Source: an uncultured Rhizobiaceae group bacterium | Lineage (GTDB): Bacteria; Pseudomonadota; Alphaproteobacteria; Rhizobiales; Rhizobiaceae | DNA length: 49,729 nucleotides | Reading direction: 5' to 3' | NCBI GenBank assembly: GCA_937951645.1 | Contig: CALFBM010000054.1 | Span: 1 to 49,729 of the forward strand | Shown here: positions 16,952 through 22,858 of the stretch, in pieces | How the letters are laid out: the number at the start of each line of letters is the position of its first letter | How positions within the stretch are numbered: position 1 is the stretch's first letter | Position numbers and translations under genes: made by a program | The notes under the pieces: generated by a model | What the model was told of the DNA's origin: nothing | The model's database searches: none | The model's input: the letters and a program-made list of their open reading frames with translations, nothing else

Positions 16952-18120
16952 CCGCACAACCAAGTGAGCCTTCTCGCGGATTTCCAGTTTCGGAATTTGA
17001 AGCGCGCCTTGTCAAAGCACAAACTCAAATGGCGAGCGAAGGCCTATCGGCCATGTTGTTGACGACAGAACCAGAAGTTCGATACTTCTCTGGTTTTCTG
17101 TCCCAATTCTGGCAAAGCCCTACGCGACCGTGGTTCATGGTAATTCCGGTCTCTGGCAAACCGATTGCAGTTATTCCGGAAATTGGCCGTCAATGCATGG
17201 CAAAAACCTGGGTTAATGATATTCGCACCTGGGATGCACCAAACCCGCAAGATGATGGTGTTTCCCTTTTGGCAGATACCCTGCGCGAAGTTGCCGGCAA
17301 GTCTGGTATTATAGGCGTGATGAAAGGTGCAGAGTCGCATCTTCGTATACCTATGGCTGATTATGAGCGATTAACTAACTCCCTGCCCCATAATCCAATT
17401 CGTGATTGTAATGAACTTGTCCGTGCGCTCAGGGTTGTAAAGTCTGAAAACGAGGTCAATAAAATCCGCCATGCTGCGCAAGCTGCATCACGTGCTTTTC
17501 TTCGTGCACCAGGGTTTGTGTCCATCGGCATGTCAGACCGTGAGGTTTTTCAAGCCATGAAACATGAATTGCTTAATGAAGGTGTGGACGATGTTTCCTA
17601 CCTCGTTGGCGGCTCGGGTCAAGGTGGCTATGACGATATCATCTCACCACCTTCCACTCGCAAGCTACAATCCGGCGATGTACTAATCCTTGATACAGGC
17701 TGCGTTTGGGATGGTTACTTCTGCGACTTTGATCGTAATTATGCAATTGGCAAACCAACACCAAAAGTAGCAGAAGCACATCATATAATCTGGGATGCAA
17801 CCGAAGCAGCACTCGAAATTTGCAAGCCAGGAACAACCTGCGCAGAACTCTTCACCACCATGAACAAAGCCATGGGCCTGGGCGATGACGCAGGCTCGGT
17901 TGGCCGCTTGGGGCACGGACTAGGAATGCAACTCACCGAGCACCCCTCTCACGCTGCATTCGACAAAACCGTATTGCAAGAAGGCATGGTGCTGACCCTC
18001 GAACCGGGCTACGAATTTGCACCTGGTAAAATGATGGTGCACGAAGAGAATATTGTAGTGCGAGCTGATGGCGCTGAGCTATTAAGTACCAGGGTGGCTA
18101 GGGACATTGTTGTGGTTTGA
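16948..18120 (+). CDS. M24 family metallopeptidase (Xaa-Pro aminopeptidase/creatinase-like)
   Basis: Cytoplasmic dinuclear-metal hydrolase of 390 residues. An N-terminal creatinase domain (EVRYFSGFLSQFW) precedes a pita-bread domain with all five metal ligands: Asp249 and Asp260 (LDTGCVWDGYFCDFD), His323 (RLGHGLGMQL), Glu352 (LTLEPGYEF) and Glu366 or Glu367 (VHEENIVV). Family members cut Xaa-Pro peptides or hydrolyse small amides such as creatine or ectoine. Coupling to the ammonia-lyase gene by a four-base overlap suggests a small-molecule substrate that yields a diamino acid. It is intact, unlike the doeA remnant at 8574. Confidence 0.85.
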   Translation: MTAQPSEPSRGFPVSEFEARLVKAQTQMASEGLSAMLLTTEPEVRYFSGFLSQFWQSPTRPWFMVIPVSGKPIAVIPEIGRQCMAKTWVNDIRTWDAPNPQDDGVSLLADTLREVAGKSGIIGVMKGAESHLRIPMADYERLTNSLPHNPIRDCNELVRALRVVKSENEVNKIRHAAQAASRAFLRAPGFVSIGMSDREVFQAMKHELLNEGVDDVSYLVGGSGQGGYDDIISPPSTRKLQSGDVLILDTGCVWDGYFCDFDRNYAIGKPTPKVAEAHHIIWDATEAALEICKPGTTCAELFTTMNKAMGLGDDAGSVGRLGHGLGMQLTEHPSHAAFDKTVLQEGMVLTLEPGYEFAPGKMMVHEENIVVRADGAELLSTRVARDIVVV

Positions 18121-18168
18121 GTTTATCTATATCTTAACTTCTTAACCAAAGAGGATATTGATTTTTAG

Positions 18169-19563
18169 TTATGTAATCCACACGTCAACTTTCGTCTTGC
18201 GCCCACGCAGTTTGATATCCTGTTTGAATTCAAAGGTTTTTTGCACAGCCTCCCTAACTTCTTGAGGCTGAAGACAGGACTTCATAAGGTGGTCACTAAC
18301 AATACAACGACACTCCAGTTCCCGAGTTGTTGACTCCAATCTACTTGCCACGTTTACGGTATCACCAAGCACTGCAAATTCAAGTCTGCGAGATGGCCCT
18401 ATATCACCCAGGATAACCGGACCATAATGAGCACCTATTGAAACATCGATTTTGGATTTGCCGTTATTCACACGTTCTTTATTGAACTTATCCATCGTGC
18501 TTATGATCTGCTCAGCTGCTCGAAGTGTATTAATTCCGTCATTTGGTCCGGTTTGTGGCGTGCCAAATGTAGCCATGACACCATCCCCCATATATTTATC
18601 AAGTGTTCCACTGTTATCAAAAATTGCCTTTTCTACAATGCCATGATATTCGCGTAATAGTTCCATTACTTCCTCAGGTGACTGCTGTTCTGCAAATTGT
18701 GTAAAGCCTACAATATCAGTAAACAGAACACCCACATCTTGACTTCTGACTGCGCCAATATCGTGATCAGAAGACGCCAGCACATCCACAAGACTTGATG
18801 GGAAATATCGGGAAAGATTAGCTCTTTCTGCAGCTATGCTTGCCTGCTGCATTAACAAATTGTTTGAACGCCATCCCTTGATCGCAAGAATGCCTGCAAC
18901 AATTATAAATACGACAATCTCCTGTATCCTGACATTGAGTTGAATATCGTTTGGGCCCAAAAGTTCAGTTACAATGTCATGCCCAGCAAATGCTTTTGTT
19001 GCGGCGTCGCTTAACTCGGGTATTTCGTGCCCTAAAAAAGTGACACCAAAAACCCCAGCCAACCATAACAAGGCAACCCAGGTTCCCATTGCCCATATCG
19101 TCCTCCATGAATATGCCAATGTAGCAACGGCCAGGATTACAAAGAAATATATGAAATTATCAAATCTATAGAGCATGGCAGTCGGTATCTGCTCATCCAG
19201 GAATGGGTTTGGAAAAATGAATATAAGTGTCAAGAACATCAAGTCGACCAGTATCAAGACCAGTTCAGCACCTGACCTTCCTACACTTGACATTCTGTAT
19301 TGCAACCAGCCCAATGCGATAAAAACCAAAAGAGTAGCCTCGTAGAAAAGCACGTTCCAGTTTGGGTTCAGAAAGGGTATGAGGATAGCAATCGTACCGA
19401 GCGCAACTGTTCTGGCAATCGCAGCAATACGGTGTCCATCGTGTTTTTCCTTTTCAAGTGCCTCGGCAAGAAATGGATTTGATTTGGCCTGTTCTTGTTC
19501 CAGTTTTCTCATTTCCTGAAACTTGAAAAAATGTGTAGGCTCTTTTTGATCCATCATGTTCAA
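18169..19563 (-). CDS. Membrane class III adenylate cyclase
   Basis: Inner-membrane enzyme of 464 residues expected to make cAMP. The first ~245 residues hold about six hydrophobic segments with a short periplasmic stretch; a linker helix leads to the catalytic domain. Key motifs: metal-binding Asp in VGVLFTDIVGFT (near 284) and in KYMGDGVMATFG (near 324), the purine-specifying Lys in LDKYMGDG and Asp in VLGDTVNVASRLE (near 397), and the transition-state Asn/Arg in NVASR. These residues favour ATP over GTP. It is a single gene, convergent with the M24 gene. Confidence 0.88.
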   Translation of the reverse strand: MNMMDQKEPTHFFKFQEMRKLEQEQAKSNPFLAEALEKEKHDGHRIAAIARTVALGTIAILIPFLNPNWNVLFYEATLLVFIALGWLQYRMSSVGRSGAELVLILVDLMFLTLIFIFPNPFLDEQIPTAMLYRFDNFIYFFVILAVATLAYSWRTIWAMGTWVALLWLAGVFGVTFLGHEIPELSDAATKAFAGHDIVTELLGPNDIQLNVRIQEIVVFIIVAGILAIKGWRSNNLLMQQASIAAERANLSRYFPSSLVDVLASSDHDIGAVRSQDVGVLFTDIVGFTQFAEQQSPEEVMELLREYHGIVEKAIFDNSGTLDKYMGDGVMATFGTPQTGPNDGINTLRAAEQIISTMDKFNKERVNNGKSKIDVSIGAHYGPVILGDIGPSRRLEFAVLGDTVNVASRLESTTRELECRCIVSDHLMKSCLQPQEVREAVQKTFEFKQDIKLRGRKTKVDVWIT

Positions 19564-19737
19564 ACCTTTGGCAAATATCTGAGCTTGCGTGAATACTAAT
19601 CTACAAGCGGTATGATATCTCTAATGTTTTATTGCATTAAACAGTATTGTTATTTGAATTTTGTATAAGGCAAGTCTCAAGAATTGTATGGATATTCGCT
19701 TTATGAGACAAAGCCACCATTAAAACCAATCTACCAC

Positions 19738-19910
19738 CACACTGTGCATGAAAAATGTCCCATATTTTCATGCAAGGCTTTTAAATTCCGACAAGATTAA
19801 AGCCTCGGCTCTTACGCGCCATCTTCTTTCATCAGCTTTTTCTTGCTGGCTATTTTGTTTTTAACTTCTGCTTTTTTCACGATGAAGCCACCGACTTTAT
19901 CTTCATAAAG
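19738..19910. repeat. Decayed direct copy of the tig 3' end and its terminator (copy A)
   Basis: This stretch aligns base by base with 21440-21616, the last codons and terminator of tig, in the same orientation. Shared blocks include TTTTCATGCA, AAATTCCGA, ATCTTCTTTCATCAGCT and CTTTATCTTCATAAAG. Identity over the coding part is about 75-80 % by eye; similarity fades beyond 19910. The terminator stem is degraded in this copy. Together with copy B it brackets the flavoprotein gene 19992-21182. Confidence 0.85.
19812..19910 (-). pseudogene. Truncated trigger factor tail (tig fragment)
   Basis: The minus-strand frame encodes LYEDKVGGFIVKKAEVKNKI and ends SKKKLMKEDGA at stop 19812-19814. It matches the last residues of the intact Tig (LYEDKVIDFILEKAEVKDKT ... 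LMKEDEAEV) at about two thirds of positions. The open frame runs back in phase to the TGA of the flavoprotein gene at 19992-19994, so read-through would append it to that protein. There is no start, promoter or N-terminal part of tig, so it is a remnant, not a gene. Confidence 0.85.
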
Positions 19911-19991
19911 CAACGCAGGTTGCCTTGTGCCTACCGGTAAAATATTTCTCATCTGCCTCATGACTTTAGCAGGTGCTTTAGAGGTTTTTTG

Positions 19992-21182
19992 TCAAATACT
20001 TGAATTACGAAACGGTATGCCCAAAAAAGTTCCTCTGGCAAAATGATATATAAACCTAATCCATCGGCGTCCGCTCCAACCTGGCCCCAGTTTGGTCGAA
20101 ATTCCATGAAGAAAATATGCACCGTTGATACTATCTGTATCACTTTCCAGTTTTTCTGGATCCTTGTAAAAGTCTCCAATGGTCTTCGCGCTTAATTCAT
20201 TGCTTTCGAGCCAGTCTGGAATGTGTGTGCCACACAACTGTTTGACATCAATTAATGCCTTGCCAACTCCGGTTCCCGCACCAGGACATGAAGTAGAATA
20301 CGCATCTCCTATAAACACAACGCCATCACATGTATGAGAATGCGTTTGATACAAGTCAATTGGGCGAACATGAACGCGACCATCAACACTGAATTTACCA
20401 ATTGTTTTTTCAAGTGATGGCATCAAACATGTGAGGGCTTCTTCTGGCGCAGTCTGTAAATTTAATATTGTTTCTTCGTCGCGTTTCCAATAGCCGAACA
20501 GGTTTGCCCTGAATTTTCCATCATTTTTGAAAGCAGTGAAATACGCCATCTTGCTTGAAACCTTTTCAGGCCAGTATGTTAAGGATTCAAAGCCAAAATT
20601 ATTGTTATTTTCAGGTTTTAAATCAAACCCGACAGCCATCACATGATGCCTGCTTAACATTTCCTGTTCGACACCAAGTTGCCTTCTCAATCCTGGATTA
20701 AGTCCATTAGCCATAATGACAATACGGCAGGTAACCTGCGTACCGTCCACAAGTGTAAGGGTTTGTTTGGTCGCTGTGTTTTCAATGGTCTTTACCTTGC
20801 TGAAAACCTTTTTCACCGTTTTTGGAATATCATCCCTTATGGCAGTAATCAGCGTTTGATAGGAAAATCCATAATGGGGGTAGTTTACCTTGTTTAGCAG
20901 ATGTCCCAGGCGAGAAATCCACACACTTTCAATAGGTGTGCAGGATTTGAATACAGCATTTGCCAAACCCATGTTTTCGAGTGTCTGCATTTGTGGACGA
21001 TTAAGCTTCTCGCAGCGAAAGTCATCCGGATAAACTTCATGAGGGTCTATCAGTATGCAATCATGTCCGGATTTTCCAAGCATCGCAGCAGCAGCAGAAC
21101 CGGCGACTCCTCCACCAATAATCGCGATGTCAGATTTTATCAACTTGGCGTGGGCTGAACCATAAATCATACTATTACTCAT
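19992..21182 (-). CDS. FAD-dependent oxidoreductase (class A monooxygenase / geranylgeranyl reductase-like)
   Basis: Flavoprotein of 396 residues. FAD is bound by an N-terminal Rossmann motif IAIIGGGVAGSAAAAMLG with LIDPHE at the end of the second strand, and by GVVFIGDAYSTSCPGAGTGVG near residue 295. CEKLNRPQMQTLENMG is like the RG/DG region of phenol hydroxylase and geranylgeranyl-reductase families. The substrate cannot be named. It stands alone, between tig and a decayed copy of the tig 3' end in the same orientation, which suggests acquisition by recombination at tig. The start MSNSMIYG is weakly supported; the Met at residue 5 is an alternative. Confidence 0.75.
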   Translation of the reverse strand: MSNSMIYGSAHAKLIKSDIAIIGGGVAGSAAAAMLGKSGHDCILIDPHEVYPDDFRCEKLNRPQMQTLENMGLANAVFKSCTPIESVWISRLGHLLNKVNYPHYGFSYQTLITAIRDDIPKTVKKVFSKVKTIENTATKQTLTLVDGTQVTCRIVIMANGLNPGLRRQLGVEQEMLSRHHVMAVGFDLKPENNNNFGFESLTYWPEKVSSKMAYFTAFKNDGKFRANLFGYWKRDEETILNLQTAPEEALTCLMPSLEKTIGKFSVDGRVHVRPIDLYQTHSHTCDGVVFIGDAYSTSCPGAGTGVGKALIDVKQLCGTHIPDWLESNELSAKTIGDFYKDPEKLESDTDSINGAYFLHGISTKLGPGWSGRRWIRFIYHFARGTFLGIPFRNSSI

Positions 21183-21439
21183 ATCTGCTTCTTATTCACC
21201 AACACTAAAATTCGTTGACAATAAGAAAAATCGATAGCTTATTTTTCGAGGTGCAATTACCAGCCATCTGTTGAAGTGATAGAATGTACTTGCCCAACAC
21301 AGTATTTGATCAATATTTTGCCATTGCAACTTTTTTTATTTTCTTAATTGATTAATGGTGAACAGTAATAATTAATACAGCAGGCTTAATGTGTATTTTA
21401 TAATGCTACCAAGTCATAATATCGCACTCTATCGCACCA
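21183..21439. other. AT-rich gap upstream of the flavoprotein gene
   Basis: AT-rich sequence between the flavoprotein start and the tig terminator. It presumably holds the flavoprotein promoter but no convincing hexamer pair stands out. A short tandem ATCGCAC-TCT-ATCGCAC lies at about 21421-21437. No gene is visible. Confidence 0.4.
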
Positions 21440-21616
21440 TACACAGTGTATAAAAAAGCCCCACATTTTCATGCAGGGCTTTCAAATTCCGATCAGACCA
21501 ATATTTAAAGCTTATACTTCGGCTTCATCTTCTTTCATCAGCTCTTCCTTGCTGACTGTTTTGTCTTTTACTTCAGCCTTTTCCAGTATGAAGTCGATAA
21601 CTTTATCTTCATAAAG
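21440..21616. repeat. Intact tig 3' end and terminator (copy B of the direct repeat)
   Basis: The functional copy of the repeat, made of the last ~35 codons of tig plus its terminator. It aligns with 19738-19910 about 1.7 kb away in the same orientation. See the copy A entry for the shared blocks. Confidence 0.85.
21452..21480 (-). terminator. Rho-independent terminator of tig
   Basis: On the minus strand AGCCCTGCAT pairs with ATGTGGGGCT around GAAA and runs into TTTTTTA. It lies 30 bases past the tig stop codon. A degraded version sits in repeat copy A. Confidence 0.88.
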
Positions 21617-22858
21617 TGGCGCGCGTAGTCCTGCTACTGCGTCCGGGTTTTCCTTGAAGTAGTTTAGAACTTGTTCTTCCTGACCCGGATACTGCTGGAT
21701 TTGCTGATAAACAGCTGCCTGCATTTCATCGTCTGTTACCTGAACGTCGGCTTTTTCGCCAATTTCTGCGAGAACCAGCCCCAGACGCACACGGCGTTCT
21801 GCCAATGTTTGATATTCTTTCTTGGCTTTGGCTTCTGTAGTGCCTTCATCCTTGAAAGTTTTGCCTGCACGCTCAAGTTCGGAGTTCATCTGTGTCCAGA
21901 TGTTATTGAACTCTTGCTCAACCATTTTTTCCGGCAATTCCATTTTGGTTTTCTTGTCAAGCGTATCAAGAATTTCACGCTTTACCTTGGCACGCGAGAA
22001 AGATGTGTACTGGCCTTCAATTTGGCCGCGCACTGCTTCTTTCAACTTCTCGACATTTTCCATGCCAAGCTTGGTAGCAAATTCATCGTTGATTTCCAGT
22101 TTGCCAGCTTTTTCAACTTTAATAACTGTTACATCAAACTCGGCATCCTTGCCTGCAAGTTGCTTTGCGCCGTACTCATCAGGAAATTTCACTTTAACAA
22201 CTGTTTCATCGCCTGCTTTTGTACCTTTAAGCTGGTCTTCAAAGCCGGGAATAAACTGGCCAGAACCAATAACCAATTGTGCATCATTGTCAGCACCCCC
22301 TTCAAAAGGTTCGCCATCAATTTTGCCAAGATAATTCATGATGATGCGGTCGCCGTCTGCAGCCTTGCCCTTTTTCTCTTCGTAAGGCTTCATATTATCG
22401 CCGATCTTTTCGATCTGCTCATCAATTTCCTTGTCGGACACTTCCGCAACCGGACGCGTCAATTTCAGTTTTTCAAGTTCAGGCACATTGATTGCCGGAA
22501 TAACTTCATAACTCAAGGAAAATTCAAAATCCTTTTTGCCTGCAAGAATTTCCTCTGCTTCCTTCTCGTCTTCCGTCATGTTGACTTCCGGCTGTTGGGC
22601 AGCGCGCTCTTCGCGCTCGACAAGCACTTCTCCAGTACGTTTGGAAACATACTCATTTACAATTTCAGCCATTGCCTGTTTACCGTACATTTGTTGAAGG
22701 TGTGATTTTGGCACTTTACCCTGACGGAAGCCATTTAGCTTGACCTGGCCTTTTAGTGTGTCCAATTTGGCATCAAGTTGCGATTTCATGTCTTCTTTCG
22801 CAACAACGATTTTAAGCTCGCGTTTCAAGCCTTCATTGAGGGTTTCTGTAACTTGCAT
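21512..22858 (-). CDS. tig: Trigger factor, ribosome-associated chaperone
   Basis: Chaperone and prolyl isomerase of 448 residues that binds nascent chains at the ribosome exit. The N-terminal domain holds the ribosome-binding region GFRQGKVPKSHLQQMYG near 43-60. The FKBP-type isomerase domain (about 165-250) reads GDRIIMNYLGKIDGEPFEGG and GSGQFIPGFEDQLKG. The C-terminal helical domain is complete with an acidic lysine-rich tail. Tig usually sits just upstream of clpP; here it is separated from clpP by about 7 kb, and its 3' end is duplicated at 19738-19910. Codons and length are normal. Confidence 0.97.
   Translation of the reverse strand: MQVTETLNEGLKRELKIVVAKEDMKSQLDAKLDTLKGQVKLNGFRQGKVPKSHLQQMYGKQAMAEIVNEYVSKRTGEVLVEREERAAQQPEVNMTEDEKEAEEILAGKKDFEFSLSYEVIPAINVPELEKLKLTRPVAEVSDKEIDEQIEKIGDNMKPYEEKKGKAADGDRIIMNYLGKIDGEPFEGGADNDAQLVIGSGQFIPGFEDQLKGTKAGDETVVKVKFPDEYGAKQLAGKDAEFDVTVIKVEKAGKLEINDEFATKLGMENVEKLKEAVRGQIEGQYTSFSRAKVKREILDTLDKKTKMELPEKMVEQEFNNIWTQMNSELERAGKTFKDEGTTEAKAKKEYQTLAERRVRLGLVLAEIGEKADVQVTDDEMQAAVYQQIQQYPGQEEQVLNYFKENPDAVAGLRAPLYEDKVIDFILEKAEVKDKTVSKEELMKEDEAEV

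Follow-up and report, generated by a model that had tools for sequence, protein, structure and literature searches.

A decayed second copy of the tig 3' end behind a flavoprotein gene in an uncultured Rhizobiaceae bacterium

The window analysed here, a stretch of 49,729 nucleotides, comes from contig 54 of a draft genome of an uncultured Rhizobiaceae bacterium (2.8 Mb in 208 contigs, 81.6% complete). It carries an intact tig gene, whose trigger factor product has the domains Trigger_N, FKBP_C, and Trigger_C. Read along the minus strand, the order is tig, its terminator, a flavoprotein gene, a decayed tig tail, a decayed terminator, and an adenylate/guanylate cyclase gene (Table 1). Beyond the cyclase gene, on the opposite strand, lies a putative pepQ, a name read off the sequence. 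The terminator of tig itself was not reported by a simple terminator scan.

Table 1. Features of the tig region, in minus-strand order
Feature	Position in window	Strand	Evidence or remark
tig, intact trigger factor, 448 aa	21512..22858	(-)	TIGR00115 equivalog, 405.7 bits (cut-off 180.2)
Tig-tail copy A, the functional tig 3' end	21517..21633	(-)	Direct repeat
tig intrinsic terminator	21454..21483	(-)	13-bp hairpin and T run, -18.6 kcal/mol, z -4.0
Flavoprotein gene, 396 aa, UbiH/FAD_binding_3 superfamily	19992..21182	(-)	PF01494, 55.6 bits (cut-off 22)
Spacer from flavoprotein stop to start of tail homology, about 60 nt	19931..19991	(-)	Similarity to tig at chance level
Tig-tail copy B, decayed, about 38 codons, early stop	19812..19930	(-)	76% to copy A
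Decayed terminator of copy B	19745..19796, homology ending at about 19750	(-)	85% to tig terminator; fold z -0.77
Adenylate/guanylate cyclase gene, 3' of copy B, outside the repeat	18169..19563	(-)	PF00211, 91.9 bits

The two tails and the two terminators form the two longest direct repeats reported between positions 18000 and 23000. The coding pair (19811-19927 and 21517-21633) runs ungapped and in the same orientation for 117 nt at 76% identity; the terminator pair (19751-19796 and 21452-21497) follows in conserved order, with 85% identity over 46 nt. Gapped blastn gives 76% over 179 nt (E 3e-31), and when the tig protein is compared with its own genome the second match is copy B (residues 410-446, 68%, E 6.6e-6). 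A first-pass annotation of this DNA had pointed to a repeat of the tig end, with its terminator, in the same orientation. That repeat is real: its local alignment scores 196, against a maximum of 54 in 500 dinucleotide shuffles. The shared peptides listed there (LYEDKV, KAEVK, and LMKED) are all present, and the tail does lie in phase with the flavoprotein frame.

The limits of the repeat can be read from the density of matches. Along the ungapped coding diagonal, matches per 15 nt number 10-13 over 19815-19919 (10 at 19905-19919), then 8 at 19920-19934 and 3 at 19935-19949; along the terminator diagonal they number 13-14, falling to 7 at 19745-19759 and 2 at 19730-19744. There is no above-chance similarity in the DNA past both terminators (matched or beaten by 283 of 500 shuffles), nor any above-chance match at the second copy for tig upstream of about codon 411 (445 of 500). 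A search for a longer repeat placed the score of tig body against flavoprotein body inside the shuffle range. The first-pass annotation had estimated about 35 codons plus the terminator; the repeated coding segment comes instead to about 36-38 codons, and the outermost 10-15 nt of the span it gave (at 19738 and 21440) have no demonstrable homology.

Copy B has decayed. Over 36 codons its differences from copy A are spread nearly evenly, at 8, 7, and 10 sites in codon positions 1, 2, and 3, respectively, the final two codons of this comparison lying past the early stop of copy B. Among 71 sites that are invariant in the tig tails of six species, 12 have changed; ID has become GG, and one E has become K, at positions uniform in all six tails. 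The original stem of the terminator is lost. Given the changes at invariant sites and the loss of this stem, copy B bears no sign of selection and is dead. A separate observation concerns positions 19745-19774, where the decayed terminator now forms a different, near-perfect hairpin (TGCATGAAAA / TTTTCATGCA). This hairpin could have been made by quasi-palindrome correction; its folding energy is unremarkable.

A second tail was sought in 12 tig loci (the window, 10 congeners, and genome G012; 1.5-12 kb downstream, E <=1e-3), and was found in the window only. For an eleventh congener, G008, the assembly is 58% complete and contains no tig, hence the number of 10. A DNA search with the tail through 12 genomes of the genus located it at two places in this genome, at one place in six others, and nowhere in five. 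All 10 tig-bearing congeners also lack the flavoprotein gene at tig. Five of these (G001, G002, G006, G010, and G011), with downstream DNA ranging from 1.5 kb (G002) to 11.6 kb (G006), have one tail and other genes in the same interval, so that none offers a clean empty site. The layout first proposed for the window (full tig, terminator, new gene, tig tail, decayed terminator) is confirmed. In 30 tig loci, about 1.4 kb downstream of each contained no recognisable second tail, a distance beyond which the window's own second tail lies; candidate matches in these loci are short (21-37 nt) or are low-complexity ends directly behind tig. One translated match, in locus L039 (35% over 31 aa, E 0.003), was considered as a second tail and rejected: it contains a stop and resembles the tails of other species, not its own, and is read as chance on those grounds.

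How old is the second tail? Its distance from copy A is 0.24 at codon positions 1 and 2, and 0.19 at invariant sites; this divergence is mostly on the decayed branch. The fourfold-site distance between tig of the window and that of G010 is 0.74, or 0.37 per lineage. Set against one another, these values suggest that, going back towards the split from the congeners, the duplication falls at roughly one half to two thirds of the distance, with a wide error. The absence of a second tail from the 10 tig-bearing congeners, together with its divergence, dates the event to the lineage of the window; in calling the event old, the first-pass annotation was right.

Over 93 coding sites copy B differs from its own tig at 19, from G010 at 17, and from the other four congeners at 22-25. 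Eight sites separate tig of the window from that of G010, and at these copy B has the G010 state at five and the tig state at three. In a tree of tails, copy B sits on a branch of 0.66 with no supported placement. Its sequence fits a copy of the lineage's own tig, with tig later changing at some synonymous sites; it may also derive from the tig of a near sister. The first-pass annotation had supposed a circular DNA with a related tig end, or repeat-mediated duplication; a donor end that was already diverged is not called for, since 19 differences in 93 sites is about what identical copies would yield through decay and later change in tig. The converse idea, that the intact tig tail is the foreign one, was rejected: over the last stretch compared it is 86-91% identical to five congeners, the usual level.

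What produced this arrangement? We put at about an even chance a single insertion-with-duplication event behind tig, in this lineage and after its split from the sampled congeners. DNA bearing the flavoprotein gene would have inserted directly 3' of tig, leaving a second tig 3' end and terminator, about 190 bp in all, at the distal side. Insertion and duplication would thus be one event, presumably through recombination that used homology in the tig tail as its anchor, with illegitimate joining at the other end, or through an equivalent single crossover; a circular intermediate may have been involved but is not supported. The tig end of the incoming DNA would have been nearly identical to that of the host. 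The outer tail, being dispensable, would then have decayed, while tig retained a complete end and terminator.

A serious but less probable contender separates the two steps. Here a short tandem duplication of the tig tail and terminator came before the arrival of the flavoprotein gene between the two copies, or else the tandem duplication was larger and most of the second unit has since disappeared. The tails do fit identical copies within the lineage, with the 12 changes falling at otherwise invariant sites, and the G010 states in copy B are what later changes in tig would give. Genes also come and go in the interval behind tig. However, this course requires two events within one 200 bp, and the larger unit predicts likeness past the two terminators, where the stretches are in fact unlike.

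Site-specific integration is improbable. On this view an element encoding a tyrosine integrase, either a phage or an island, would have used the tig 3' end as its attachment site, restored the gene with a copy of its own, displaced the original tail to the far side, and later lost all but the flavoprotein gene. A parallel for a regenerated target gene with a displaced fragment is e14 in icd of Escherichia coli. Islands of the kind treated in the Islander account (PMC4383910) show the same layout: complete target gene, insert, and displaced 3' fragment, in direct orientation. The window differs from them in that no integrase was found, the insert is about 1.5 kb, and the target is tig, not a tRNA or tmRNA gene. 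An integrase or its remnant inside the bracketed DNA is expected of such an island; none was found with PHROGs for the three small ORFs of the interval and the flavoprotein, nor with Pfam for the flavoprotein. For one small ORF, PHROGs gave two weak matches (E 0.05 and 0.07), both to families without an assigned function. Integrase matches (PF00589) were listed for 61 genomes, weaker ones left out, and many contigs are short. The one listed for this genome is on contig C11, and of all those listed the nearest to a tig on the same contig is about 85 kb from it, in G028. No second tail and no island at tig was found in the other loci searched (for 30 of them, about 1.4 kb downstream), and the flavoprotein was not found in viral contigs. 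Records of phages do contain tig (32 records), all below 60% identity, and are not informative here.

Least credible of all is a chimeric join, in a fragmented draft metagenomic assembly, of another organism's tig tail behind the flavoprotein gene: copy B is indeed no closer to its own tig than to that of G010, but it is unlike a working tig end (ID to GG, E to K, early stop, eroded terminator) and is located away from the ends of a 49.7-kb contig.

The single insertion-with-duplication event, the reading we favour, leaves the origin of the flavoprotein gene to be considered. The protein scores 83 bits against TIGR01988, under the cut-off of 224.65, and none of the best 25 of 49 NCBIfam models reaches its own cut-off. 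Among proteins of solved structure, profile comparison puts VisC and 6-hydroxynicotinate 3-monooxygenase closest to it. In a sample of the family, matches at E <=1e-60 occur in 14 of 297 genomes. An alignment-based query located 46 flavoprotein loci in genome contigs, and a single-sequence query none; tig was found in the flank of none of the 46 (up to 6 kb, shorter at contig ends), so a donor layout was not seen among them. Among plasmids, 6 of 72,556 records contain a match, at 31-35% identity, on replicons of 0.39-2.08 Mb predicted to be non-mobilizable.

Relatives that have the flavoprotein gene carry it at loci other than tig. Four congeners (G002, G006, G008, and G011) have it between an aldehyde dehydrogenase gene and a glyoxalase-family gene, near a gene that reads as mutL; G004 and G005 have it at yet another locus. 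The first-pass annotation had proposed to look for traces of a second tail in relatives with the flavoprotein gene, a comparison that does not apply as worded because their gene is elsewhere. In this genome the aldehyde dehydrogenase-glyoxalase site is empty, the two genes lying about 130-170 nt apart with nothing between, and it is empty also in G010, G001, and G003 (the site was compared in L111, 4180-4348, and in L112-L114). A side-by-side view showed none of the flanks of that locus around the window gene, and blastn with those flanks returned only the window itself and matches at E >0.7.

The window protein is 50-54% identical to those of the four congeners, which are 60-69% identical among themselves. 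In the flavoprotein tree it falls outside the four, with support of 96/97 and 99/98 for their grouping. Of groupings picked after the tree was seen, the AU test rejects the window protein with G002, G008, and G006 to the exclusion of G011 (p 0.006), and rejects neither its placement as sister to all four (p 0.31) nor its grouping with G004 and G005 (p 0.10). The gene thus appears not to be an orthologue of the one in the four congeners; a relocated orthologue is less likely than an old paralogue or a gene acquired from beyond the clade. The gene may yet be a relocated, fast-changing orthologue, given that the sister placement stands and that G011, the deepest branch of the tig tree, holds that position with support of just 82/88.

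Two further features of this gene concern its end. The frame is open past the TGA and runs on through 19931-19991 into copy B. At the C-terminus the protein lacks a few residues relative to the four congeners, yet it extends past the ends of the G004 and G005 proteins. On these two grounds, the stop may have arisen after the junction with the tig tail.

How does the arrangement compare with known systems? Homology-facilitated illegitimate recombination that leaves orphan 3' regions has been proposed for Vibrio T6SS effector/immunity arrays and for Rhs loci (PMC5361080), and its authors grade the process as putative and rare. The arrays described there share with the window an anchor that is conserved at one end and is followed by new genes and, downstream, by a displaced remnant. 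In contrast, the window has as its anchor a housekeeping chaperone gene, as its remnant about 38 codons and a terminator, and no donor was found. As in homology-anchored insertion with target duplication, two direct copies of the anchor bracket the insert, and close relatives have a single copy free of it; a donor with the insert linked to a tig anchor was absent from the flavoprotein loci surveyed. Our claim is one of likeness of layout, not of membership. The best reading is that of a further example of a known recombination scar, so far in this genome only.

Taken alone, such a scar alters no established view. It is a roughly datable one, in which a core chaperone gene gained a new neighbour behind it with no harm to itself, and the flavoprotein gene exemplifies a gene whose place differs between close species. 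Were tig-tail scars to recur in more strains, the locus would serve to mark an insertion mechanism.

The interval between tig and pepQ (18121-21511 in the window; L043-L047 elsewhere) differs in gene content in all six close species compared. It holds the flavoprotein and cyclase genes in the window; a DM13 protein and a 130-aa ORF in G002; a sulfotransferase-like ORF and repeat proteins in G010; an arginase/agmatinase-like ORF, an RhtB-like exporter (by tblastn), and a MarR-like ORF in G001; DUF4910 and Antibiotic_NAT proteins in G006; and a 108-aa ORF in G011. (The G010 contents, and the first and last of G001, are named from sequence only.) Gene turnover between core genes is a general phenomenon already described (PMC5635113), and tig-pepQ matches it in that different accessory genes occupy the interval in these six close species. 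It differs from those chromosomal hotspots in its small cargo (0.5-4.3 kb).

The first-pass annotation, whose interpretation is supported in part, had called the tig 3' end an integration hotspot, a description that holds in a loose sense only. The turnover agrees with this; the second tail, seen in none of 11 other loci, and the distance of the nearest listed integrase match do not. We found no paper on tig as an integration site. It is a long shot that small mobile units of this group, each bringing its own tail and terminator, use the tig 3' end as a genuine attachment site, with the decayed copy the only one caught so far; were it so, tig and its transcription stop would survive each insertion.

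The cyclase gene has its closest congener relative in G001, on two contig ends (L115 and L116, 68% and 59%). There it adjoins genes reading as dnaX, ybaB, and recR, away from tig, and so this gene too is found at varied locations.
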